A DNA stretch of 64,000 bases from NCBI GenBank assembly GCA_905182535.1, contig CAJJBZ010000010.1, positions 62,001-126,000 of the forward strand, written 5' to 3'. Under the pieces are notes generated by a model that worked only from the letters and a program-made list of their open reading frames with translations, had not been told where the DNA came from and did not search any database. Positions 17,791 through 34,007 of this stretch are shown piece after piece; positions within the stretch are counted from its first letter, which is position 1; every line of letters begins with the position of its first letter. The translations under genes and the position numbers were made by a program. Origin of the DNA: an uncultured Planktomarina sp. (GTDB lineage Bacteria > Pseudomonadota > Alphaproteobacteria > Rhodobacterales > Rhodobacteraceae).

Positions 17791-18615
17791 TTAGGCTGGT
17801 GGTAGAGTATCTGCGTCACGCTTAGCAATCCAATCATGGGCCGGGTCGTTTTTGAAACGCCACTTACGCAGGGGCCCGGCCATAACGTTTAGGTAATAGA
17901 GTTCATAACCATAAGGGGCCGCGCACGGGTGGTGGCCCTTGGGCACCAAGATCACATCACCATCAGCCGCAGACATGGTTTTATCTAGAGACCCATCCTC
18001 GGTATAGACCCGCTGGACTGCAAAGCCTTGTGCAGGGTTGAGGCGGTGGTAATAGGTTTCCTCGAGGTAGGTCATATCAGGGTAAATATCTTCGTCATGT
18101 CGGTGGCTGGGATAACTGGACCAATTACCTGCAGGAGTGAAGACCTCGGTAACCAGCAGGCTGTCGGCCACGTCGCGGTCTTCCATGGCAATATTGTTGA
18201 TAAAACGCGTATTTTGTCCCTTTCCACGTGGGGTTAGGGTAATTCCCTCAGGCCCTAAACGTTGCACTCTGTGGCCGCTTTTGCCCGGTGCGGTGCAGAC
18301 CGCCAAAGTACAAACAGTGGTGGCTATGGCTTGCCAGCTTTTATCATTGGGCACATAGAGACAATGGGGGGGTAAGCGATCGAACACTGACATGCGTTCG
18401 CCCATTTCTCCAAAGTCTTGACCGTCGGCTGTTATTTGGGCTTTGCCTTCTACCAGCACCAAGATGACCTCTCGGTCGCCCGTGGCCTCTTGTACGCTGT
18501 CGCCAGGCTGCAACTTATACAGACCGAATCCCACGTAACCCCAATTTGCGCTATCGACATTGATATCGTGACACTTTCCGGTGAGGGCTATGGGTTTGCG
18601 TAGAAGGTTAGCCAT
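17791..18615 (-). CDS. iolB: 5-deoxy-glucuronate isomerase (IolB/KduI-type cupin)
   Basis: IolB isomerises 5-deoxy-D-glucuronate to 5-dehydro-2-deoxy-D-gluconate in myo-inositol breakdown. The 274-residue bicupin has the metal-binding block SSYPSHRHDEDIYPDM, then YLEETYYHRLNPAQGF and GDVILVPKGHHPC, matching IolB. No other iol gene (iolC, D, E, G) is present in the window. Instead it is the last gene of a minus-strand set with an FAH-fold hydrolase, a sugar-acid dehydratase and an SDR, so it may act on another uronate-like intermediate here. The start MANLLRKPIAL fits the family. Confidence 0.82.
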   Translation of the reverse strand: MANLLRKPIALTGKCHDINVDSANWGYVGFGLYKLQPGDSVQEATGDREVILVLVEGKAQITADGQDFGEMGERMSVFDRLPPHCLYVPNDKSWQAIATTVCTLAVCTAPGKSGHRVQRLGPEGITLTPRGKGQNTRFINNIAMEDRDVADSLLVTEVFTPAGNWSSYPSHRHDEDIYPDMTYLEETYYHRLNPAQGFAVQRVYTEDGSLDKTMSAADGDVILVPKGHHPCAAPYGYELYYLNVMAGPLRKWRFKNDPAHDWIAKRDADTLPPA

Positions 18616-19543: not shown

Positions 19544-21335
19544 CTAGTGATTGTCACGTGGCGTATGTTTACGGGCGATATCCTGATATTTATGGGCACC
19601 TTCGAGGGTCATACCTTCGGAAAAGGGTTGAACTTTTTCACGAAACAGTTCTTGCCAAGGTGTTTGGCTGTCGGGGGTAAATGGGCGAGGGCCGAGGACC
19701 GCCTTCCTACGTTCCAATTCAGCTGGATCCACCAACATGTCTGCAGTGCAAGCGTTCAAATCAATCCTAATTGTGTCGCCTGTCTGGACTAAGCCTAAGC
19801 CACCACCGTCTGCAGCCTCTGGGGAGGCGTTGAGAATGGAAGGAGAGCCAGACGTACCTGACTGTCGTCCATCACCTAAACAGGGTAGGGAAGTGATGCC
19901 TTGGGTGATTAGATAGGAGGGTGGACGCATGTTCACCACTTCGGCCCCGCCAGGATAGCCAATTGGCCCTGCGCCTCGCATAATCAATACGCAATTAGCA
20001 TCAATCATCAGGCTTTGGTCGTCAATAGTATGGTGAAAATCCTCTGGACCATCAAATACAACAGCGCGCCCTTCAAAAGCGTTAGGGCTATCGGGGTTGG
20101 ACAAATAGCGCGAACGAAATTCTGGTGAAATCACCGATGTTTTCATGATTGCACTATCAAATAAATTGCCCTTAAGGTTTATAAACCCAGCCGATTGTAC
20201 CAGTGGCGCGTTCACTTGTTTGATCACATCACTGTTTTCACTTCTTAGATGACCACAGTTCTCTAAGATTGTCTTTCCATTGACTGTCTGCGCATTCGGG
20301 TGAGGCAGCAAATCAGCTGCCAGTAATTCCCCTATCACTGCAGGCACGCCGCCCGCCTCTATGGTAATCTTCGCCGAGATATTCGCCAGCTGGCTGCAAA
20401 TTAACTAGTAAAGGTACGTTATGGCCAAGGCCCTGCCAGTCGTCATTATTTAAAGCTACGCCTAAATGTTTGGCGATCCCGTTCAGGTGAATTGGCGCAT
20501 TGGTTGAGCCACCAATAGCGGAGTTGATCACAATAGCATTTTCAAAAGCTTCGCGCGTCATAATGGCGTCTGGGCGTAGATCTTCATGCACCATATCCAC
20601 AATGCGCAAGCCGGTTTCATAACTGATTTGCCCTCGTTCACGGTAAGGTGCAGGAATTGCAGCCGCACCTGGTAACTGCATGCCCAACCCTTCAGCTAAA
20701 GAGTTCATAGTGGTTGCTGTGCCCATGGTGTTGCAATACCCAACCGAAGGTGCCGAGGAGGTCACCATCTCCATAAATCCGTCGTCGTCAATCTCACCGG
20801 CAGCAAGCATTTCGCGGGCTTTCCAAACGATGCTGCCTGATCCGGAGCGTTTGCCACGGAACCAGCCGTTTAGCATCGGTCCCACCGATAGAGCTATCGC
20901 GGGGATGTTAACCGTGGCCGCAGCCATCAGTAGCGCAGGTGTGGTTTTGTCACAGCCAATGTTTAGCACAACTCCGTCAATTGGGTAGCCAAATAGGGTC
21001 TCCACCAAGACTAAATATGCAAGATTTCGGTCTAAGCATCGCAGTTGGACGCTTGCCAGTTTCCTGAATGGGATGCACGGGGATCTCAATCACTGTTCCA
21101 CCCGCTGCTAATCACCCATCCGTCACCGTTTCGTAAGTTCAATGTGGTGGCGATTGCACGGTGACAAATCACTGCCCGTCTGTGCAATTCCGATAATTGG
21201 GTTACCAGACTGTAATTCTTTTCTAGTAAGACCATAGTTAAGATATCGCTCTAAATAAAGAGCAGTCATTTCTGGATCTTTTGGATTATTAAACCATTGT
21301 TGGCTTCTTAAATTTTTTTTACGTTTTATTGGCAT
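19544..21335 (-). CDS. IlvD/Edd family sugar-acid dehydratase (frame broken at several points)
   Basis: The parts add up to a dehydratase of about 595 residues of the kind that turns pentonates or hexonates into 2-keto-3-deoxy acids. Iron-sulfur cysteines are visible in [26 protein letters not shown] and [30 protein letters not shown] and [20 protein letters not shown] are further family signatures. The start [21 protein letters not shown] region resembles arabinonate/xylonate-type enzymes more than IlvD. Four small indels lie between 21020 and 21130 and one near 20345 (an extra G before CGGGCGG). Whether these are errors or true decay is open. Confidence 0.75.
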
Positions 21336-22113: not shown

Positions 22114-22362
22114 CTTTCCATCCTTCAATATATCGTAAAGCTGACCCATATCGTCATGGAGAGGCCGTATGTTCGTGATTTAAACTATATTTTTAGCTTG
22201 GGAACCTATCTCCAGCCTTGTCTAAGCTCATTTAAGGATGAGTTATAGATAAGACCATCGCTGTTGCTTTGCGGAATTGATGTGTTGCAATTTGTCTATT
22301 TCACAACCAAAATATATTTTAGTAAACCGCAATCTTTGCGTCTAAAAAAGGTTTTAAGATCA

Positions 22363-23243
22363 ATGTCAGTGCAAAAAATTGCCCTATTAGGCACGGGTTT
22401 GATGGGAGCGCCGATGGCCCGAAACCTTTGCCAGGCTGGTGTGGATACGACCGTGTGGAATCGTACAGCTAATAAGGCCAAGCATTTGGCCCACTTTGGA
22501 GCAACAGTCGCCCAAAGTGCAGCAGGTGCCGTAGCACAAGCAGATATCGTGATCTCGATGTTGTCTGATGGTCCTACTGGAGTCATGGTGCAGTCTGACC
22601 CTGATGTGCGCGCCTCTTTGAAAGCTGGCGCTATTTGGGTCGAAATGGGCTCGATTAAACCGGAGGAGGCGCGTGCGTCTGCAGCCAATCTGGCGCAGTT
22701 GAATGTCGGCTATGTAGATGCTCCGGTGTCTGGAGGTACTAAAGGTGCTGAAGAGGCAAACCTTGCTATCATGGCAGGTGGCGATCTGGTAATTTTTGAA
22801 GATGTGTGCAGTGTCTTTGACGCGACCGGTGCATGTGGGTCCGGTGGGAGCAGGGCAATTGGCGAAATTGGCCAACCAAGCCATTGTTGGTATCACCATT
22901 GCTGCGGTAGCCGAAGCGATGTTGATGCTGCAAAACGGTGGTGCGGATCCGGCTGCGGTGCGGGCTGGCCTTGAAGGGTGGCTTTGCAGACAGTACAATT
23001 TTGCAGCAACACGGTGCACGCATGACGACTGGAGACTTCACTCCTGGTGGGTTGTGTGAATTACAGCTAAAGGACCTTAATAATGCTTTGGCAGAGGCTG
23101 AAAGCTTTGGGCTAAGCTTACCAACTCTGATCAATACCCGCGATCGCTTTCAGCGCTTAGTCAGCGATCTTAATGGCGCAAAGCTCGATCACTCAGCATT
23201 ATATTTGGAGCTGTGTGATCTTAACGGTCTCGGCTCAGTTTAG
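22363..23243 (+). CDS. Beta-hydroxyacid dehydrogenase, NAD(P)-binding (frame broken twice)
   Basis: A member of the 3-hydroxyisobutyrate/tartronate-semialdehyde reductase family, about 290 residues. The Rossmann motif ALLGTGLMGAPMARNL opens the protein; VDAPVSGGTKGAEEANLAIM is the substrate-binding segment; GQLAKLANQAIVG carries the catalytic Lys; the C-terminal helical domain ends GAKLDHSALYLELCDLNG. The frame changes near 22835 and again near 22977 (an extra G in GAAGGGTGG), so three frames must be joined. It is divergent from the sugar-acid set and may reduce or oxidise one of its short hydroxyacid products. Confidence 0.8.
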
Positions 23244-23437: not shown

Positions 23438-23953
23438 TTGGATTTTGAAGACGACCGCATTATAGTTGCATCACCTGAAAAAGTTTGGGCAAACCTGCTT
23501 GACCCAGAGATACTGAGGAAGTGCGTGCCAGGGTGCCAGAGCCTTACGGGCGACGTCGAGGGTGGTTTCGAGGCTACTGTTGTTCAAAAGGTTGGCCCCG
23601 TGAAAGCTAAGTTCAAGGGAACCGTGCATTTAAGTGAGCTCAATGCCCCATATAGTCTGCGCATTAGTGGTAAGGGTGAAGGCGGCGTTGCCGGGTTTGC
23701 CCGAGGGGGTGCGGATGTAACTCTTGAGGCCGATGAATTAGGAACAAAATTAAGTTATGCGGTAAAGGCGCAAATTGGTGGAAAGTTAGCACAGCTAGGC
23801 TCTCGCATCATCGACAGTTTTGTCAGTCAAATGGCAAATCAGTTTTTTGAGACGTTTCAGAGCGAAGTGGAAGGGGCCAACTTAACAGTGGCTGAAGTAC
23901 CAATGCAAAAAATTGGATTTTGGAAAAGAATTTTACATATTTTCAAAAAATAA
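23438..23953 (+). CDS. coxG: CoxG family (SRPBCC fold) protein
   Basis: A 171-residue START-like protein of the CO dehydrogenase subunit G family. The pattern [30 protein letters not shown] and [19 protein letters not shown] is typical. CoxG is thought to help attach or mature molybdenum hydroxylases at the membrane. The C-terminal tail [14 protein letters not shown] looks amphipathic and could touch the membrane. The start is TTG with GGGAGG 8 bases upstream. It is the first gene of the train running through coxSLM, coxDE and the reductive dehalogenase. Confidence 0.82.
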
Positions 23954-23973
23954 TATGGCTAGGGAGAGAAAGA

Positions 23974-24456
23974 ATGAAAATTGCGATGACTGTAAACGGG
24001 AAATCTGTATCCCGTGAGGTGTCTGACAACACCCTGCTTGTTGAATATATTCGAGATCACCTGAGACTGACTGGTACCCATGTGGGCTGTGACACCAGCC
24101 AATGCGGTGCATGTGTGGTGCACGTGGACGGTCAAGCGACGAAATCTTGCACCATGTTGGCTGCTAGCGCAGAGGGTCTAGCAGTCACTACAGTGGAAGG
24201 TTTGGCAAAATCGAAAGATGACCTGCATCCGATGCAAGTGGCGTTCAAAGAAAACCACGGCCTGCAATGTGGGTTTTGCACTCCAGGCATGATTATGACC
24301 GCCACAGATATGGTGACACGATATCATACGCAGGGCAAAGAACTCACTGAGGACGCCATTCGTGTGCATTTGGAGGGTAATATTTGCCGCTGCACTGGCT
24401 ACCACAATATTGTGAAATCCATCGCGGACGGTGCGTCCAAGATGACGACTGTATAG
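23974..24456 (+). CDS. coxS: Molybdenum hydroxylase small subunit, 2x[2Fe-2S]
   Basis: The 160-residue iron-sulfur subunit passes electrons from the Mo site to the FAD subunit. The plant-type cluster ligands are in [15 protein letters not shown] plus a Cys at KSCTM, and the second cluster is in [10 protein letters not shown] and CRCTGY. The start ATG has AGGGAGAGAAAGA just upstream and excludes a longer open frame that overlaps coxG. The stop is 6 bases before coxL. Gene order S-L-M is that of form II CoxL clusters. Confidence 0.92.
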
Positions 24457-24462
24457 GGGGGA

Positions 24463-26829
24463 ATGAATATGTCTGAAGGAATTGGAGCCCGCGTCTTACG
24501 CAAGGAAGACAAAAGATTCATCACTGGAAAAGGTCGGTATACCGACGATATTGTAGAGGATAATCAGGCCTATGCCGCCTTTGTGCGCAGCCCGCATGCC
24601 CATGCGCGTATCGTGTCGATCGACACCACTGCGGCCATGAAAATGGAAGGTGTTGAAACAGTTCTCAACGGCGCCCAATTGACCGGCGACGGCATTGGCA
24701 ACATTATTTGTGGCTGGGCGGTTGCATCCAAAGATGGCAGCCCGATGAATATGGGCGCATGGTCGGCTTTGGCTACTGAAAAAGTGCGCTATGTTGGAGA
24801 TGCCGTGGCCATAGTTGTGGCCGATACAAAGTCACTGGCTAAATTAGCAGCTGAAGCAGTCGTCGTTACCTATGAGGAGCTGCCTGTGGTAGTGGGGTCG
24901 CTGCAGGCCCTAGCGGGCGGTGCGCCGCAACTGCATGAGAATGCGCCCGGTAATTTGATTTTTGATTGGGAAATAGGTGATTTGGCCCCAACCGACGCTG
25001 CTTTAGCTGCTGCGGCTCATGTGACGGAAATGGACATCACCAACAATCGCTTGGCGCCAAATCCAATGGAACCTAGATCTGCGATTGCCACATTTAACGA
25101 TGCTGAAGACCATTATACACTCTATACAACCAGCCAAAATCCCCATGTAGCGCGTTTGGTGCTCTCTGCGTTTTATAACGTAGCTCCGGAGCATAAGTTG
25201 AGGGTGATAGCGCCGGACGTAGGTGGTGGATTCGGATCAAAAATCTACATTTATCCTGAAGAAATTGCTTGCCTATGGGCTGCTATGAAATCTGGGCGTT
25301 CAGTTAAATGGACCTCTGATCGCACTGAAGCTTTTTTGACTGATGCCCATGGCCGCGACCACGTATCAACTGCCAAAATAGGTTTTGATGGAGATGGTAT
25401 GATTGTAGGTTTGAAGGTCAACACTAAGGCTAACCTCGGCGCCTATATGTCGCTGTTCAGTTCGGCAGTACCAACCTATCTCTACGGGACACTACTCTCG
25501 GGTCAGTATAACATAGCCAATATCTATTGTGATGTGCAGGCCGTTTATACTAATACAGTGCCGGTTGATGCATACCGTGGTGCTGGTCGTCCTGAAGCGT
25601 GCTATGTAATTGAACGGATTATGGAAACTGCTGCGCGTGAAATGGGAGTCGATCCCGCTGAACTTCGTGCTAAAAATTTCGTAACTTCCTTTCCTCATCA
25701 AACCCCAGTGATTATGGCTTATGATAGCGGTGACTTTGCAACCAACCAAAAGCAAGCGCAAAAGGCGGCTGACGTAGCCGGATTTAGAGCCCGCAAAGCT
25801 GAGGCGCTGGGCCGTGGTAAGCTTCGTGGCCTCGGCTATTCCAACTATATTGAAGCTTGTGGCATCGCACCTTCAGCGGCTGTGGGTAGCTTGGGCGCCG
25901 GTGTAGGTCTATGGGAAAGTGCCGAAGTGCGCGTTAATCCAGTGGGCACTATTGAAATTCTCACTGGTTCTCACAGCCACGGCCAAGGTCATGAAACCAC
26001 ATTCGCTCAGATTGTAGCTGAACGCTTTGATCTTCCGACTGAGAATATCAAAATTGTGCATGGCGATACTGATAAAGTCCAATTTGGAATGGGCACCTAT
26101 GGATCCCGTTCTGGGGCTGTGGGCATGTCTGCCATCGTGAAAGCTATGGATAAGGTCGAAGCTAAGGTCAAAAAGATTGCGGCCCATGTCCTGGAAGCTG
26201 GTGAAGATGACATAGTGATTGAGGGTGGTGCTGTGAAAGTTGCTGGTACCGATAAGCAGATGCTTTGGCATGAAGTAGGTCTGGCGGCTTATACCGCGCA
26301 TAATATTCCTGATGGGATGGAGCCTGGCCTTAAAGAAACTGCATTCTACGATCCAACTAACTTCACCTTCCCAGCGGGATGTTATATCTGTGAGGTTGAG
26401 GTGGATCCGGATACCGGTGTGACTGAAGTTGTCCAATTTGTAGCATCTGATGATTTTGGTACCATAATTAATCCTATGATTGTAGAAGGCCAAGTGCATG
26501 GTGGGATAGCTCAGGGAATTGGCCAAGCGATGCTGGAAAATGTGGTCTATGATGACGCTGGCCAACAATTGTCGGCCAGCTACATGGATTATACAATGCC
26601 ACGGGCCGATGACTTGCCAAATTATTCAGTGCATCACGCGTCAACCACATGCCCAGGAAATCCCCTTGGCATGAAAGGTTGTGGTGAAGCAGGTGCCATT
26701 GGATCTCCACCGGCTGTAATCAATGCAATTACAGATGCCATTGGCAACAATAATCTTTCTATGCCTGCCACCCCTGCTGCGGTCTGGACTGCTTTGCAGG
26801 CTGCAAGCATCAAATTAGCAGCTGAATAA
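24463..26829 (+). CDS. coxL: Form II CoxL-type molybdenum hydroxylase large subunit
   Basis: The 788-residue catalytic subunit of the xanthine oxidase family, binding the molybdopterin cytosine dinucleotide cofactor. The active-site loop is AYRGAGR (residues 370-376), the form II signature; true (form I) CO dehydrogenases have AYxCSFR with the Cys that bridges Cu and Mo. The MPT-proximal glutamate is in GCGEAGAIGSPPAV (about Glu742), and PDVGGGFGSK lies near residue 250. Form II enzymes are often labelled CO dehydrogenase but their substrates are mostly unknown. The frame is intact. Neighbours CoxS, CoxM and maturation factors CoxD/E/XdhC make a complete enzyme set. Confidence 0.9.
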   Translation: MNMSEGIGARVLRKEDKRFITGKGRYTDDIVEDNQAYAAFVRSPHAHARIVSIDTTAAMKMEGVETVLNGAQLTGDGIGNIICGWAVASKDGSPMNMGAWSALATEKVRYVGDAVAIVVADTKSLAKLAAEAVVVTYEELPVVVGSLQALAGGAPQLHENAPGNLIFDWEIGDLAPTDAALAAAAHVTEMDITNNRLAPNPMEPRSAIATFNDAEDHYTLYTTSQNPHVARLVLSAFYNVAPEHKLRVIAPDVGGGFGSKIYIYPEEIACLWAAMKSGRSVKWTSDRTEAFLTDAHGRDHVSTAKIGFDGDGMIVGLKVNTKANLGAYMSLFSSAVPTYLYGTLLSGQYNIANIYCDVQAVYTNTVPVDAYRGAGRPEACYVIERIMETAAREMGVDPAELRAKNFVTSFPHQTPVIMAYDSGDFATNQKQAQKAADVAGFRARKAEALGRGKLRGLGYSNYIEACGIAPSAAVGSLGAGVGLWESAEVRVNPVGTIEILTGSHSHGQGHETTFAQIVAERFDLPTENIKIVHGDTDKVQFGMGTYGSRSGAVGMSAIVKAMDKVEAKVKKIAAHVLEAGEDDIVIEGGAVKVAGTDKQMLWHEVGLAAYTAHNIPDGMEPGLKETAFYDPTNFTFPAGCYICEVEVDPDTGVTEVVQFVASDDFGTIINPMIVEGQVHGGIAQGIGQAMLENVVYDDAGQQLSASYMDYTMPRADDLPNYSVHHASTTCPGNPLGMKGCGEAGAIGSPPAVINAITDAIGNNNLSMPATPAAVWTALQAASIKLAAE

Positions 26830-26841
26830 GGAGTTTGGACG

Positions 26842-27669
26842 ATGTATGAGACCAATTTTCATAAAGCTTCCACGGCGCAAGACGCGGCAGCACTCTTAGC
26901 CAAATCAGACGATGGCAAAATCTTGGCGGGTGGTCAGACATTGATTCCCACGATGAAGCAAAGACTGGCAGCACCTGCGGATCTAGTCGATCTGAGCCGG
27001 GCCGAGGCCCTGCGCGGTGTGACCATCACCAAGCGCAAAAAAATGGGTATAATGAAGGCAGATGGTGGTGAGACGATAACCATTGGTGCCATGACCACGC
27101 ATGCAGAAGTGGCTGGTGATACAGAGTTGGCTAAAGTTTGTCCTGTAATCTCTGGATTGGCAGCTAACATTGGTGATCCTGCGGTACGCCATCGTGGCAC
27201 CATCGGTGGCTCTGTAGCCAATAATGATCCTGCAGCTGATTATCCCGCCGCTTTAATGGCTTTGAGAGCTACAATCCATACCAACAGTCGTGAAATCAAA
27301 GCTGAAGATTACTTCCAAGGTATGTTTGCAACGGCGTTAGCTGATAATGAGATTATCACTGCGGTGAGCTTTCAGGCCCCAGCGGTGGGCGGTTATGGCA
27401 AATTTCCCAACCCGGCGTCCCGCTATGCAATGGTGGGCGTATTTATTGCCAAATCTGTTGACGGTGATGTGTGCGTTGCTGTGACTGGGGCGGGCGATAA
27501 TGGTGTTTACCGCCACGCTGGATTAGAAGCGGCTCTATCTGCAGATTGGTCCACAACAGCGATCGAAGCGATTGAGGTCTCGGCGGATGGGCTTATGTCC
27601 GACTTACATGGGACTGCGGCTTACCGCGCTAATCTTATTAAGGTTATGGCCAAACGCGCTTTGGTCTAG
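26842..27669 (+). CDS. coxM: Molybdenum hydroxylase FAD-binding medium subunit
   Basis: The 275-residue flavoprotein subunit takes electrons from the iron-sulfur subunit. The FAD pyrophosphate motifs are in ILAGGQTLIPTMKQRLA and TIGGSVANNDPAADYPAAL, and GDPAVRHRGTIG is the typical loop. The C-terminal CoxM/CO_deh_flav_C domain follows. It starts 12 bases after coxL with a GGAG ribosome site. A strong hairpin separates it from coxD. Confidence 0.92.
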   Translation: MYETNFHKASTAQDAAALLAKSDDGKILAGGQTLIPTMKQRLAAPADLVDLSRAEALRGVTITKRKKMGIMKADGGETITIGAMTTHAEVAGDTELAKVCPVISGLAANIGDPAVRHRGTIGGSVANNDPAADYPAALMALRATIHTNSREIKAEDYFQGMFATALADNEIITAVSFQAPAVGGYGKFPNPASRYAMVGVFIAKSVDGDVCVAVTGAGDNGVYRHAGLEAALSADWSTTAIEAIEVSADGLMSDLHGTAAYRANLIKVMAKRALV

Positions 27670-27687
27670 CCTGCCTATTTACATCTC

Positions 27688-27716
27688 ACACCAGCTCCAA
27701 AATTTTGGGCTGGTGT
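27688..27716 (+). other. Stem-loop between coxM and coxD
   Basis: ACACCAGC and GCTGGTGT make a perfect 8-bp stem whose interior contains a second palindrome CCAAAATTTTGG. Only a short T-poor sequence follows, so it is a weak terminator at best. It could attenuate expression of the maturation genes or protect the 3' end of the subunit mRNA. Confidence 0.45.
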
Positions 27717-27748
27717 TCCTTATTTGGGGATTGATACCGTGAAACAAA

Positions 27749-28624
27749 TTGCCGCAATCTATTGACGCAACCACCGCTCTGCTCGCTTCTGAGGGCTATG
27801 TGGCAGATCGTGCTTTGTCGACGCTGACCTTTCTCTCCCTTACGCTCAACCGGCCAATTTTTTTGGAAGGGGAAGCAGGCGTTGGTAAAACTGAGTTAGC
27901 CAAGGTGATAGCTAAAGGATTGGGCAGAGACCTGATACGTTTGCAATGCTACGAAGGGTTGGACACGTCGACTTCAGTTTATGAATGGAATTTTGCGGCT
28001 CAAATGCTGGCTATGCGAAATGAAGGCGAGGCAGATATCTATAATGAAAAATATCTAATCAAACGCGCCTTGCTGAAAGCGGTTGAGCCGCATGCCTCCG
28101 GCCCACCCGTGCTGTTGATTGATGAGATTGATCGTTCAGATGCACCTTTTGAGGCATTCCTGTTGGAAGCCCTCTCAGATTTTCAAGTCACTGTGCCTGA
28201 GCTTGGTGTTATCAAGGCGCAAGACCCGCCTATCGTAATCCTGACTTCCAACCGCACCCGTGAAGTGCATGATGCCCTGAAGCGGCGGTGTTTGTATCAT
28301 TGGGTGGATTATCCCGATTTTGACCGTGAGATGGAGATTTTGGCGGCCCGCGTGCCGGAGGCCAAACAGGCGTTAAGCCTAGAGGTAGTTGCCTTTATAC
28401 AAAAGCTGCGTGAAGAGGATCTGTTCAAGCGCCCCGGACTCGCGGAAACGCTTGACTGGGCCAAATGCCTTATTGCGCTGGATATTGTAGCTCTGTCGCC
28501 GGATGTGATTACCGACACGATAGGCGCGGTACTTAAATATCAAGACGATATCGCCAAAATTACTGGTGGTGCGGCGGCGCGCATTTTGGATCAGATAAAA
28601 CAGGACATGCAGGCGCTGAAATGA
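27749..28624 (+). CDS. coxD: MoxR-type AAA+ ATPase CoxD
   Basis: A 291-residue AAA+ ATPase: Walker A EGEAGVGKTELAK, Walker B VLLIDEIDRSD, and the sensor region ILTSNRTREVHDALKRRC. CoxD is the chaperone-like ATPase needed for assembly of the sulfurated metal centre in CO dehydrogenase and acts with the VWA protein CoxE. The best start is TTG giving PQSIDATTALLASEGY, since the ATG/GTG codons upstream are out of frame or blocked by a stop. Its stop overlaps the coxE start as ATGA. Confidence 0.88.
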   Translation: MPQSIDATTALLASEGYVADRALSTLTFLSLTLNRPIFLEGEAGVGKTELAKVIAKGLGRDLIRLQCYEGLDTSTSVYEWNFAAQMLAMRNEGEADIYNEKYLIKRALLKAVEPHASGPPVLLIDEIDRSDAPFEAFLLEALSDFQVTVPELGVIKAQDPPIVILTSNRTREVHDALKRRCLYHWVDYPDFDREMEILAARVPEAKQALSLEVVAFIQKLREEDLFKRPGLAETLDWAKCLIALDIVALSPDVITDTIGAVLKYQDDIAKITGGAAARILDQIKQDMQALK

Positions 28625-29841
28625 CTTCAGCTGCCGGAACACTACCGGATAACATTGTCTATTTTTCTCGCGCTTTGAGGCGGGCGGGGGTGCCGGTGGG
28701 TACCGCGCAAATCCTTGAAGCTCTGCGGGCGGTCGCGGCGGTGGGGTTTACTAATCGCCTAGATTTTCATACCACTCTACGTGCAATGATTGTTTCTCGG
28801 GCTGATCATTTGTTGGTATTTGATCAGGTTTTTGCCATGTTTTGGCGTGACCCTGAATTTTTAGAAAATATGATTACCAATCTTTTGCCCGTGATAACAG
28901 CACCGCCAGTGGATAGCTCGATGGAGCCTGCTCAAACCCGAGCAGCTGAAGCAATGGCTTCTGGGGGGGGCAAGCCGCGCTGTGCACCACAACAAGAACA
29001 ATTAGAAATTGATGCGCAGTTTTCGCATTCTGACGTGGAAAAACTGTCGGAGAAAGATTTTGATGCCATGACTGCAGCCGAAATCTGTGCGGCTGAAATC
29101 GCAATTCGAACCATGGGACTGAATTTACCTAAAGTACCGGGACGGCGGCATGGCTTGGCCGCAAATGCAGTACAAATTGATCGTCGTAGGGCTTTGCAAA
29201 GTGCGCGCCGAAGTGGCGGTGAAATGATACATCTTCCCAAACGCCGCGCCAAACCCCGAAGGCTTAACCTTGTGGTACTTTGCGACATATCAGGTTCAAT
29301 GACAAGTTATAGCAGAATGATGATGCATTTTGTGCATTCTGTGGCGCAGGTTCAGGGACAATCATGGGCGACGGTGCATGGTTTCACTTTTGGTACACGG
29401 TTGCACAATATCTCGCCCTTGCTGACGATCAAAGACCCAGACGCAGCGCTAAGGGCCATTGGCAGCCACGTGCGTGACTGGGAAGGCGGTACTCGGATTG
29501 CCAGTAGTCTTGGAGACTTCAACAGGCACTGGGCGCGACGTGTACTGTCGACCCCTTCAGTAGTGCTGCTGATTACGGATGGGCTGGAGCGTGAGGGTAT
29601 CGCAAAACTGGAGAGTGAAATGGCACGGATGGCACTACAAACTCGTGAGTTGATATGGCTCAATCCACTACTGCGGTGGGGGCAGTTTTCCCCACAAGCG
29701 GCCGGCATTCGCGCCATGCTCCCCTATGTATCGTCCTTCGTAGCCTGTCATAATCTGGACAGTCTGCAAGAATTATCTGATAGTTTGAAAAATGGTTTGC
29801 ATGCGGATCACAAGAAACGATTGATTGGAATGCTAAAATGA
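28621..29841 (+). CDS. coxE: VWA domain protein CoxE
   Basis: A 406-residue protein with a C-terminal von Willebrand A domain: the metal-ion site DISGSM lies in LVVLCDISGSMTSYSRM, followed by GGTRIASSLGDF and LLITDGLERE. The N-terminal half is the CoxE-type region (ALRRAGVPVGTAQILEALRAV). CoxE and the MoxR ATPase CoxD form a maturation pair. It overlaps coxD at one end and the xdhC-like gene at the other, each by ATGA. Confidence 0.9.
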   Translation: MTSAAGTLPDNIVYFSRALRRAGVPVGTAQILEALRAVAAVGFTNRLDFHTTLRAMIVSRADHLLVFDQVFAMFWRDPEFLENMITNLLPVITAPPVDSSMEPAQTRAAEAMASGGGKPRCAPQQEQLEIDAQFSHSDVEKLSEKDFDAMTAAEICAAEIAIRTMGLNLPKVPGRRHGLAANAVQIDRRRALQSARRSGGEMIHLPKRRAKPRRLNLVVLCDISGSMTSYSRMMMHFVHSVAQVQGQSWATVHGFTFGTRLHNISPLLTIKDPDAALRAIGSHVRDWEGGTRIASSLGDFNRHWARRVLSTPSVVLLITDGLEREGIAKLESEMARMALQTRELIWLNPLLRWGQFSPQAAGIRAMLPYVSSFVACHNLDSLQELSDSLKNGLHADHKKRLIGMLK

Positions 29842-30809
29842 TTGTTTCAAAGCATATGGGCGGCTTGGCTGCTGCATTTCACAAAGGGGGCCAAAAAGTG
29901 GCTTTAGCGACTGTGTTGGGTACATGGGGCTCGTCGCCCCGTCCAGTGGGTGCGCAATTGGTTGTTTGTGAGGATGGATCTTTTCATGGCTCAGTTTCTG
30001 GAGGCTGCGTTGAGGGCGCTGTGGTTTTGGAAGCTTTGGAAACCTTGGCTAATGGTACTTGTAGGCTATTGGAGTACGGTGTGAATGATGCCGACGCTTT
30101 CGCCGTTGGATTGGCTTGTGGCGGTACCATAAGGATCATGGTTGAGCCAGTGGGTATAGGTCAGGGCATTGCGCCTTCCTTGTTGGAAAATTTGGAGCGT
30201 GCGGATGCTGCACGTCAAGCTATAGGCCTACGGGTCAATTTAGATACTTGGGAGCGAGCAGTGCTCACGCCTCAGAGCCATCCATACGAATTTTCTGGTT
30301 CGGGTGGTGTTGAGCGGAAAATTTATACGCATATTCAAAACCCACCACTGCGATTGGTGCTAATTGGCGCTGTTCATATTGCTCAATTTCTGGCTCCCAT
30401 GGCACAAATGGCTGGCTATCATGTTACTATTATTGATCCACGTGAGTCGTTCGCTAGCCCGCAGAGGTTTTTGAACCAAGAGCTTATCGTTGATTGGCCT
30501 GAGGATGCTTTAGCAGACTTAATCATAGACAATCGTACAGCTCTCGTGACATTAACCCATGATCCGAAAATGGATACGCCATCCCTGCAAGCTGTTTTGG
30601 CTACCGAGGCGTTTTATATAGGTGCATTGGGTTCGACGCGCACACATGCCAAACGTCGTACATCAATGTTGGAATTGGGAGTGCTTCCTGCACAATTCGA
30701 CCGCATTCAAGGTCCCGTTGGACTATCCATTGGCAGTAAATCTCCGGCGGAAATTGCTGTTTCCATTCTTGCGGAAATTACCCAGTGCCTAAGACAAAAA
30801 GCCACATGA
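29838..30809 (+). CDS. XdhC/CoxI/CoxF family maturation protein
   Basis: A 323-residue XdhC family protein. The N-terminal XdhC/CoxI domain has VLGTWGSSPRPVGAQLVV and GSVSGGCVEGAVV with the conserved Cys; the C-terminal Rossmann domain has IGAVHIAQFLAPMAQMAGY, YIGALGSTRTHAKR and IGSKSPAEIAVSILAEI. XdhC binds the Mo cofactor and delivers the sulfurated form to the hydroxylase. It could be called coxF or coxI. Its TGA overlaps the ATG of the reductive dehalogenase. Confidence 0.88.
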   Translation: MIVSKHMGGLAAAFHKGGQKVALATVLGTWGSSPRPVGAQLVVCEDGSFHGSVSGGCVEGAVVLEALETLANGTCRLLEYGVNDADAFAVGLACGGTIRIMVEPVGIGQGIAPSLLENLERADAARQAIGLRVNLDTWERAVLTPQSHPYEFSGSGGVERKIYTHIQNPPLRLVLIGAVHIAQFLAPMAQMAGYHVTIIDPRESFASPQRFLNQELIVDWPEDALADLIIDNRTALVTLTHDPKMDTPSLQAVLATEAFYIGALGSTRTHAKRRTSMLELGVLPAQFDRIQGPVGLSIGSKSPAEIAVSILAEITQCLRQKAT

Positions 30810-33800
30810 GTAAGCTATTTTCAGATCGCAACCGTCCCATCCATATGGGACGCTTTCCAACAGAGCGCTTGAAACGTGCCTCGAAGTGCTCAGATTTGTC
30901 CGCCATTGCTCCTTGGCCCATGTTGAGTTTTCAACGCCCTGCTGGGAGTGCCAGTATTGTACCCGCTATGGCGGAATTTCAGGCCATGATGGATGCGGTG
31001 CGGGATGGCAACGCAAACTCTGTTGCCTCAGACATCCCAACAGATTTACAAGAGCGATCCAATCATCTTAAGGCATTCGCCTATTTTAATGACATAGCCA
31101 TGGTGGGTCTTACGGCATTGGCTACAGATGACCACCTCGCAATTCCCCGCCTGAATCCAGACGTTAAACGTTTGGCATATGCCTTAAGTACCCGGCAGAC
31201 TAAAACCTTAGCGGCGGGCATTGATCTTATCATGGCTGATCTCAAGGAAAGTATGGCCGCAAAACCAGAGTCTATCACGCATCACACTGGGGCTTTAGTA
31301 TTTTTAGTAGACTATCGCCGCGACCCGAGGCGTGATGAGGCTGGCTGTGATTGGGTGCAAGACGGGCAGGCCGAACGGGCTGCAATCTTGGGTGCAGAGA
31401 CGGCAACAGTACTGGCCAACTACCTTCGGGTCTTAGGCTTTAGCGCGCGTGCGCATAGTGCCACTACTACTGATGTGGAGCTTTCGCGGTTGGCAGTAAA
31501 GGCGGGCTTAACACAGGTCGAGGGTGATCAGATAGTTCATCCTTGGCTGGGCCGCCGTTTTGGCTTGGCTGCTGTGACGACCGATATGCCTTTGGCTTTT
31601 GATAAGCCTTTGGCCGCTAAGCAACCAAAATCCGCCCTGAACTGTATGGAATGGGTCTTGGGGCGGCATGGTGGTGCCTGCCGGAGCAATCATGATCCTT
31701 ATTTGGGGCGTGATTATGTCAGTGGGGCGCATCCATTTGAGACGCTCAAACGGGTGGAGACACCCACTACTTATATGGATGAGCCGAATATTGCGCGGGT
31801 GCCTAAACGAACCGATATGTTTGCACGCGCGCAATTTGGCGATATGGGCCCGCAGGTGCAAAAAGGCGCGACGGGCGGCCATTATGTTCGAAAAGCCGCC
31901 CCGAGCGCCGCGCAACGGCGACTTTTGGGGGCCTTTGTGCTGTTGCAAGATGGCGAGCCTGCCCAAGAGGTGCAACAGATTTCACCAGAGATTGCAGCCA
32001 AAAATATAAAGGGTGCGAGTTACTTTCTCGGCATTGATGCCGCGGGCCTGTCGCGATGCCCTGCTTGGAGCTGGTACTCTCATGATGCCTACGGCACACC
32101 AATTATCCCGCCCCACGACCATGCGATTAGCATGATTGTGGATCAAGGCTTCGAAACGATGGAGGGGGCCTCCGGTGATGATTGGATCAGCGTGGCGCAA
32201 TCCATGCGGGCCTATCTGCGGTTTTCGCTATTCGGTGGGATTCTGGCCCAGCATATCCGCAATATGGGCTATTCGGCCAAGGCCCATACGGTGATGGATG
32301 GCGAGGTGCTGCAACCACCGTTGCTGCTGCTGTCGGGGCTGGGGGAGGTAAGCCGGATTGGTGAGGTGATCTTGAACCCGTTCCTAGGGCCACGGTTGAA
32401 GTCAGGTGCGGTTACCACATCATTGCCTGTGGCGCATGATAATCCGATTGATTTTGGTTTGCAAAAATTCTGTGACAGCTGCAATAAATGTGCGCGTGAA
32501 TGCCCGTCTGGTGCTATCACCGCCGGACCAAAATTGATGTTTAATGGCTATGAAATTTGGAAGTCTGACAGTCAAAAATGTGCGACCTACCGGATCAACA
32601 CCCCCGGTGGGGCGATGTGTGGGCCGTTGCATGAAGACCTGCCCGTGGAACCTAGAAGGGTTATTTTCTGAAGCGCCTTTTCGTTGGGCCGCGATGAATG
32701 TACCGCAGATGGCTCCAGTTTTGGCCAAGCTGGATGATATGGCCGGTCACGGTGAGTTGAACACTGTAAAAAAATGGTGGTGGGATCTGGAGCTAACTGA
32801 GCAGGGATCCTATGCCCCAAGCCCACATATGGTAAATGCGCGTGCACTTCAGAAGGACCTGGACCTTAAATATGCCGACCAAACCTTGGCAGTCTATCCA
32901 GCTCCCTTGGCACCACATCCTTATCCCTATCCGGCACTCATGGATCGTGAGGCGGGAATTGAGGCCTATCAAGCGATGATTACCGCAGAGGCCTACCAAG
33001 TTAAATCTGCCAGTGGCGCCCGCGATCACTTACATCTGTACCAAAACGATCAGGAGGCGCCGGTCATTCAGATGATTGTGGACCAAGTCACTCAAAGTGT
33101 TGGAGCTGTTATGAAATATAGATTGGTAGCCGTAGATGGTGCGGATTTGCCACTTTGGACAGCAGGGGCACATTTGGACATCGTTGTGGCCCCAGAATTC
33201 CTGCGTCAATATTCTATGTGTGGGAATCCTTCAGATCGCAGCTGCTATGAAATTGCCGTACTCTTGGAGCCTGAGGGCCGTGGTGGCTCAAAGCTGATGC
33301 AACGGATCTTTGAGGAGGGCCGGCGGGTGTTTGTTTCCAAACCAATCAACCATTTTGCACTGGAGGCCTCTGCAAGTCTATCCTTGTTGTTTGGTGGGGG
33401 AATTGGTGTCACGCCGATGATTGCTTTTGCCCATGAACTGGATAGCGCGGGACGTCATTTTAAGCTGATGTATTCCGCCAGCACGCAAGCATCAGCTGCT
33501 TTTGACAGTGATTTTGAGGGGCAGCCTTGGGCCAAAAAATGCAGTAAACATTACTCAGATCAAGGCAGCCGTCTCGATATTACTTCAGTTGTTCCGCCTT
33601 ATGAGGCTGGTATTCATATCTATGTTTGTGGACCGAATGCCTATATGACATCTATTCTAGATCAAGCCCGTTTCATGGGTTATCCTGATATAGCGCTGCA
33701 TGCGGAGTTTTTTGCGGTTCCGGATATGCCTGATTGGGTAAACTTTCCATTTGAGATTGAGCTAAACGATGGCCAAAAAGTTTCTGTGAGCGTAGATCAG

Positions 33801-34007
33801 TCGGCTAGTGACGCGCTCATTGCGGCGGGTATCTCTGTGGACGTGAAATGTTCTGATGGTCTCTGTGGTGTGTGTAAATGCACATTAATTTCTGGTGTGG
33901 TAGAGCACCGAGATTTTGTTTTATCTGCCGCGCAACGCGAAACTACTATGATCCTGTGCCAGAGCCGAGCCTTTCACAAAAATGCTGTGTTAAAACTGGA
34001 TATCTAG
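30806..34007 (+). CDS. rdhA: Soluble reductive dehalogenase fused to NAD(P)H reductase (frame broken once)
   Basis: A protein of about 1066 residues when the frame is joined. Residues 1-620 form a cobalamin-dependent reductive dehalogenase core with two [4Fe-4S] motifs: C-x2-C-x2-C-x3-CP at 556-566, and C592 then C605-x2-C608-x3-CP. Residues about 720-1066 are a phthalate-dioxygenase-reductase-like module: YSMCGNPSD (flavin), FGGGIGVTPMIAF (pyridine nucleotide) and a 2Fe-2S motif CSDGLCGVCKC. This matches the respiration-independent enzymes NpRdhA and BhbA, which debrominate hydroxybenzoates and phenols. No Tat signal and no RdhB anchor gene are seen, so it is cytoplasmic. One extra C at 32624-32625, inside the second cluster motif, breaks the frame. 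Confidence 0.85.

Follow-up and report, generated by a model that had tools for sequence, protein, structure and literature searches.

The window analysed here, a stretch of 64,000 nt from a Planktomarina sp. (source assembly 2.39 Mb, completeness 74%; coordinates count from window position 1), carries a reductive dehalogenase gene (rdhA) joined to the 3' end of a form II molybdenum (Mo) hydroxylase operon. This join between dehalogenase and Mo hydroxylase is real, yet it is a local arrangement, and gene content and gene order give little sign of a shared pathway. What is conserved within the genus is a translational pair of rdhA and the maturation gene xdhC, found in nine genomes.

An eight-gene cluster ending in rdhA

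The eight genes coxG-S-L-M-D-E-xdhC-rdhA all lie on the + strand in that order in the list of open reading frames (ORFs). coxG (23438..23953; PF06240, E 6.7e-32) is followed by coxS for the [2Fe-2S] subunit (from the ATG, 23968..24456; PF01799 (Fer2_2) and PF00111 (Fer2)), coxL for the molybdopterin subunit (24463..26829; MoCoBD domains PF02738/PF20256) and coxM for the FAD subunit (26842..27669; PF00941 (FAD_binding_5), E 5.8e-40). Behind them lie coxD, encoding an AAA+ ATPase (27749..28624; PF00004/PF07728), coxE for a VWA-domain protein (28621..29841; PF05762 (VWA_CoxE), E 7.6e-53) and xdhC for a Mo-hydroxylase maturation factor (29838..30809; PF02625 (XdhC_CoxI) and PF13478 (XdhC_C)). The first frame of rdhA, encoding the dehalogenase core, opens at an ATG at 30806 and stops at 32671, and a second frame after a break occupies 32610..34007.

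ATGA overlaps could be read directly from the junction sequences at coxD/coxE, coxE/xdhC and xdhC/rdhA. Gene order and junctions thus agree with an earlier reading of this DNA (the original prediction), which had placed a cox operon and rdhA on one strand with ATGA joins at these three positions. ATGA overlaps are common in bacteria, and the xdhC/rdhA overlap alone is therefore little evidence; its weight lies in its conservation. A promoter and terminator scan did not rise above chance (14 where the mean was 13.5, and 14 where it was 12.1).

The xdhC-rdhA pair outlasts the cox linkage within the genus

The genus sample comprised 20 genomes, the window's included. RdhA at ≥79% identity occurs in 11 of them, CoxL at ≥88% in 10 and XdhC at ≥64% in 11. 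The cox block, xdhC and rdhA are contiguous in four genomes, here called clade A (G000, G005, G007 and G018). In the five genomes of clade B (G001, G002, G004, G012 and, within the limits of its contigs, G003), the CoxL orthologue is 92-93% identical and lies at another site, where coxS-L-M-D-E stand behind a 405-aa gene and, in four of the five, are followed by iolB (the G003 contig ends after coxL). The distance is evident in G012, a single contig with coxL at 1.01 Mb and rdhA at 1.89 Mb, 880 kb apart. In clade B, xdhC and rdhA stay together (L153, L156, L032 and L033), directly behind a gene of the HIBADH type (3-hydroxyisobutyrate / 2-hydroxy-3-oxopropionate dehydrogenase-like), with no cox block at that site. 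G006 (80% complete) shares this xdhC-rdhA arrangement, and no CoxL of this kind was found in it.

The overlap between xdhC and rdhA measures 4 nt in G000, G005, G007 and G018 and 8 nt in G001, G004, G006, G012 and L032, whose contig coordinates are those of G002; the junction was not matched in G016, whose contig ends at xdhC. Close relatives keep the linkage and their genes overlap, which goes against the refuting outcome named with the original prediction, no linkage in any relative combined with separate start sites. Conservation of the gene order, proposed there as a check, is borne out in part: the whole linkage is kept in four genomes and the xdhC-rdhA pair in five more, but in five sisters the cox genes lie elsewhere.

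In G010, xdhC, coxM and part of coxS occupy the same site beside a glucokinase gene, with no rdhA there. Here coxS is followed directly by coxM (L155 10824-11123, 9879-10706), with no coxL between them and no coxD or coxE before xdhC, through a contig end or gene loss. The iolB gene that follows the relocated coxSLMDE in clade B (L173-L176) has a counterpart in the window (5-deoxy-glucuronate isomerase, 17794-18615), about 5 kb from the cox block; cox and iolB remain neighbours even where they have moved.

Beyond the genus, rdhA mostly stands alone

RdhA of this type was found in 80 of 198 sampled genomes of the family (79 of 197 genera) and in 31 of 385 genomes across the class, many of the latter without the reductase part. 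We assembled 84 rdhA loci, mostly one per genus, from 78 of the 80 family genomes and, for six, from the class search. Their mean length is 18.4 kb, contig ends truncating some of them; the set excludes the window's own locus and G436, whose RdhA lacks the reductase part. Only five of the 84 have any cox- or xdh-type gene, one being clade B genome G012 with xdhC alone. Mo-hydroxylase large subunits are not significantly enriched near rdhA (4 of 84 loci, 2.5 expected, P = 0.23), given a base rate of 153 large-subunit genes in 96.4 Mb that was taken from 24 of the locus genomes, all of them rdhA-carrying, with rounded genome sizes and per-genome counts. Outside the genus, xdhC was found beside rdhA in none of the 83 other loci. 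Clustering of neighbouring genes (83 loci, L271 excluded) returned no family present in more than six, which is an undercount because the crude ORF caller picks wrong-strand ORFs in G+C-rich DNA. For the most part RdhA thus moves without partner genes, as an enzyme that brings its own reductase would be expected to. We reject a conserved dehalogenase/Mo-hydroxylase system: the linkage fails over the 84 loci and is kept only in four genomes of the genus.

Two other neighbours of rdhA were seen. A 156-aa family lies directly upstream in 6 of the 83 loci, and a MarR-type regulator is annotated at that position on plasmids of Jannaschia and Aminobacter (L276 7458-7910, L275 7509-7964).

The converse comparison covered 12 outgroup cox regions (L181-L192). 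Within the stretches examined, rdhA is absent from all 12. Five carry xdhC and a MoCo-type gene behind coxD-coxE (CoxL 60-64% identity): L184, L185 and L186 have the order coxG-S-L-M-D-E-xdhC in common with the window, L188 has no detected coxG, and coxS follows coxL in L189. Operons of the L184/L185/L186 type continue into the MoCo gene, whereas in the window rdhA comes after xdhC. In L183, L187 and L190-L192, some of which are cut by contig ends, coxL alone or G/S/L/M is all that the examined stretch shows. Since xdhC stands beside cox in clade A, in G010 and in the five deeper outgroups, the cox-xdhC link appears to be the older one and rdhA the later addition, on evidence that is mixed.

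A form II enzyme and a self-sufficient dehalogenase

The translated CoxL carries the motif AYRGAGR and its gene stands in the order S-L-M, the two features by which form II (BMS-type) enzymes are defined (PMC13203968, in the text available) and which the window shares with form II cox operons of alphaproteobacteria and Planktomarina. With the domains of CoxD, CoxE and XdhC present, the predicted form II Mo hydroxylase with its maturation genes is supported. A form I CO dehydrogenase was rejected, as the motif is not AYXCSFR and the form I model TIGR02416 gives 633.5 bits, below its cut-off of 991.15. The closest solved sequences are CoxL 8uem and CutL 1ffu. CO is described as a doubtful substrate of form II enzymes in the available portions of PMC6794299 and PMC13203968. 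Form II coxSLM has been reported in Planktomarina species C2-C8 (PMC10675870); the word 'dehalogenase' was not found in that paper.

A further Mo-hydroxylase cluster in the window's genome (G000:C2:44267-51648) includes separate copies of xdhC, coxD, coxE and coxG. In the nearest relative, G005, coxL is split over three frames (L180 9577-11963) and rdhA is intact.

The first frame of rdhA matches TIGR02486 at 165.3 bits (cut-off 160.35) and aligns with NpRdhA of Nitratireductor pacificus (PDB 4ras/6zxu) at E about 1e-124, the best stretch being 166-608 (phmmer). It contains the first [4Fe-4S] motif and keeps the equivalents of NpRdhA Y426, K488 and R552 as Y477, K539 and R603 (numbered from the GTG at 30785 by hand count on the alignment). 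PF13486 matched neither in RdhA nor in the genome search, and this profile was equally silent in all 14 controls. The second frame holds the end of the other Fe-S motif and an NAD(P)H reductase / [2Fe-2S] (PDOR-like) domain: PF00111 is matched, as are NADH oxidoreductase models under their cut-offs, and the frame continues the intact 1073-aa protein of L031 in alignment. This 95%-identical relative aligns over its full length, at 48.6% identity, with the pBHB gene product WP_015585978 of Comamonas; the pBHB gene of Comamonas sp. 7D-2 is named BhbA in the available text of PMC10463259. The NpRdhA match, the catalytic residues and the full-length BhbA alignment of L031 together uphold the assignment to the fused NpRdhA/BhbA type that the original prediction had made.

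The window RdhA has the dehalogenase core and NAD(P)H reductase domain in common with JtRdhA and BhbA, which are self-sufficient RdhA-PDOR fusions; unlike these, it is read in two frames as assembled. JtRdhA, a related marine fused enzyme of Jhaorihella thermophila, removes halogen from ortho-halogenated phenols and debrominates 3,5-dibromo-4-hydroxybenzoate, as reported in the part of PMC10463259 available. NpRdhA shares the Y/K/R residues but lacks the reductase domain, according to the same text. The domain and motif positions described for a Roseobacter debrominase in the available text of PMC13101508 include no fused reductase. The neighbours of BhbA are protocatechuate ring-cleavage genes, porins and IS elements, with no Mo hydroxylase in the gene table of PLSDB, which is incomplete. 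A further, short RdhA-like gene occurs in G001, G002, G003, G004, G012 and G018 (421-432 aa, 32-35% identity to the window RdhA), without the length of a fused reductase.

The break in rdhA is probably a sequence error

As assembled, the two [4Fe-4S] motifs and the fused reductase are all present, yet divided between two frames: after the stop at 32671 the remainder lies in another open frame (32544-34007). The break falls near 32615, inside the second Fe-S motif, at a single extra G compared with the 95%-identical relative. In genus relatives at 89-95% identity rdhA is an open frame of 1084-1088 aa. Two neighbouring genes are similarly broken by comparison with intact relatives (high-scoring segment pairs below 55% identity excluded): an IlvD/Edd-like dehydratase gene (19544-21089) once, and, against L031, L178 and L153, the HIBADH-type gene twice. 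The latter lies upstream of coxG on the + strand (22372..23243; 22264-23243 in the frame-break comparison), and its first part matches PF03446 and reaches 112.4 bits with TIGR01505, below the cut-off of 340.75. Because close relatives are intact and both neighbours show such breaks, a sequencing or assembly indel is the probable cause; on the same grounds a programmed frameshift was rejected.

A real frameshift, with rdhA decaying in this genome and the operon yielding a truncated, inactive dehalogenase, would fit the assembled sequence and has parallels in G499, whose rdhA is likewise in two frames (G499:C4:333242-336423), and in G593, which has a degenerate second copy with two stops (G593:C12:38798-40105). 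We regard such decay as very improbable in view of the intact relatives, the broken neighbours and a ratio of nonsynonymous to synonymous substitutions (dN/dS) of about 0.08 for the rdhA core between the window and two other clade A genomes.

Proposed addition, shared pathway or shared control

We lean towards an addition of rdhA to the 3' end of the form II operon in an ancestor of part of Planktomarina, by which the two enzymes need not share a pathway. In this scheme, whose chemistry, co-transcription, order of events and lack of a common pathway we infer, a self-sufficient catabolic rdhA would have joined behind coxG-S-L-M-D-E-xdhC. Its product would be reduced by NAD(P)H via the reductase domain at its C-terminus and, by analogy with its relatives, would use cobalamin and two [4Fe-4S] clusters to remove a halogen ortho to a phenolic OH. 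CoxD, CoxE and XdhC load the Mo hydroxylase, which would then oxidise a separate substrate. Translation of rdhA would follow that of xdhC through the overlap, and such coupling would mean that XdhC and RdhA are made together.

Several observations weigh against this scheme. The xdhC-rdhA join has been kept in all nine genomes, and in clade B xdhC is still constrained after leaving the cox genes (dN/dS 0.11-0.19). CoxL and RdhA mostly co-occur within the genus: CoxL is present in 10 genomes and RdhA in 11, the exception being G006. As for the order of events, the nearest two CoxL relatives from beyond the genus are arranged differently: L181 (G023, CoxL 75%) has G-S-L-M only, and in L182 (G026, CoxL 73%), of order D-E-G-S-L-M, a distant xdhC (30%) stands on the opposite strand. 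Forks of the xdhC tree are also unsettled, including the order of G007, G018, G010 and other groups. The undercount in the neighbour clustering belongs here too, and so does a second kind of Mo hydroxylase beside rdhA. Among named genomes, where Ruegeria is the commonest genus in the best 80 of at least 592 RdhA loci, 26 of these 80, mostly from Ruegeria, have a different Mo hydroxylase downstream of rdhA on the same strand, and in the window's own genus G013 has a related one that stands head to head with rdhA (L162).

The Ruegeria-type layout, exemplified by L035 (13299-16926) and the 25 similar loci, is rdhA followed by FAD, FeS and Mo subunits. The best models for its enzyme, 4-hydroxybenzoyl-CoA reductase alpha and xanthine dehydrogenase, both stay under their cut-offs. 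Like the window, these loci have a Mo hydroxylase near rdhA on the same strand; they differ in that the enzyme is only 26-28% identical to the window CoxL, stands downstream of rdhA where the window's stands upstream, and is accompanied by no match to coxD, coxE or xdhC. Across the family, its co-occurrence with rdhA is not significant (rdhA in 29 of 60 genomes with it and 51 of 138 without, p = 0.16), and we rejected this 4-hydroxybenzoyl-CoA reductase-like enzyme as a general partner of rdhA. The pairing is suggestive, on gene order, of a link between dehalogenase and Mo hydroxylase.

The original prediction had inferred that the Mo hydroxylase and RdhA work on the same compound or on consecutive intermediates. 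In such a pathway the Mo hydroxylase substrate could be a halogenated aromatic, oxidised, for instance, at a ring position or from a bromo-4-hydroxybenzaldehyde to the benzoate; RdhA would dehalogenate the product or the precursor of this step, and the resulting 4-hydroxybenzoate would pass to PobA. The contiguous, overlapping genes, the near-complete co-occurrence of CoxL and RdhA in the genus, the Ruegeria-type pairing and the debromination of a dibromo-4-hydroxybenzoate by the Jhaorihella enzyme would all suit it, and of the 20 genus genomes 11, including the window's, have PobA above cut-off. PobA does not track rdhA, however: the search did not separate genus genomes with rdhA from those without, and G007 (full cluster, 95% complete) has no match better than E 6e-6. 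With CoxL and rdhA apart in five sister genomes, the CoxL family without rdhA in the 12 outgroup regions, no significant Mo-hydroxylase enrichment over the 84 loci and p = 0.16 for the Ruegeria type, the claim was not sustained, and we consider a single pathway unlikely.

What the pair may share instead is maturation or expression control. The dehalogenase transcript would supply the XdhC that the form II enzyme needs, and Mo-hydroxylase activity would then depend on rdhA induction, also in genomes whose structural genes lie at another site. G012 fits this: it has five XdhC_C genes, none of them beside the relocated coxSLMDE, and the copy joined to rdhA is its sole homologue of the window xdhC at an E-value of 1e-20 or below. 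The constraint on xdhC in clade B points the same way. However, these genomes also carry other XdhC paralogues that could fill this role, and we hold control of this kind to be improbable. A broader version is about as improbable: the overlap would be a selected control link, XdhC being made together with the dehalogenase because both enzymes serve one route for algal brominated phenolics. In part of the genus the maturation factor would then be made only with the dehalogenase, that route would include the form II substrate, as an aromatic aldehyde or a ring compound, and the Ruegeria pairing would have been reached separately.

Implications

In titles and abstracts, with partial coverage of the literature, we found no description of rdhA beside a form II cox operon or of xdhC-rdhA coupling, and none naming a reductive dehalogenase together with a Mo hydroxylase. 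Form II Mo hydroxylases are widespread and their substrate is unclear (PMC6794299 and PMC13203968, in the text available). The conserved translational link of a maturation factor to a dehalogenase offers a testable lead on the form II enzyme in one abundant marine lineage. Should the link be merely an accident of gene order, it would be a caution against inferring pathways from a single operon. The occurrence of fused-type RdhA in 79 of the family's 197 sampled genera bears, in addition, on who recycles natural organobromines at sea.

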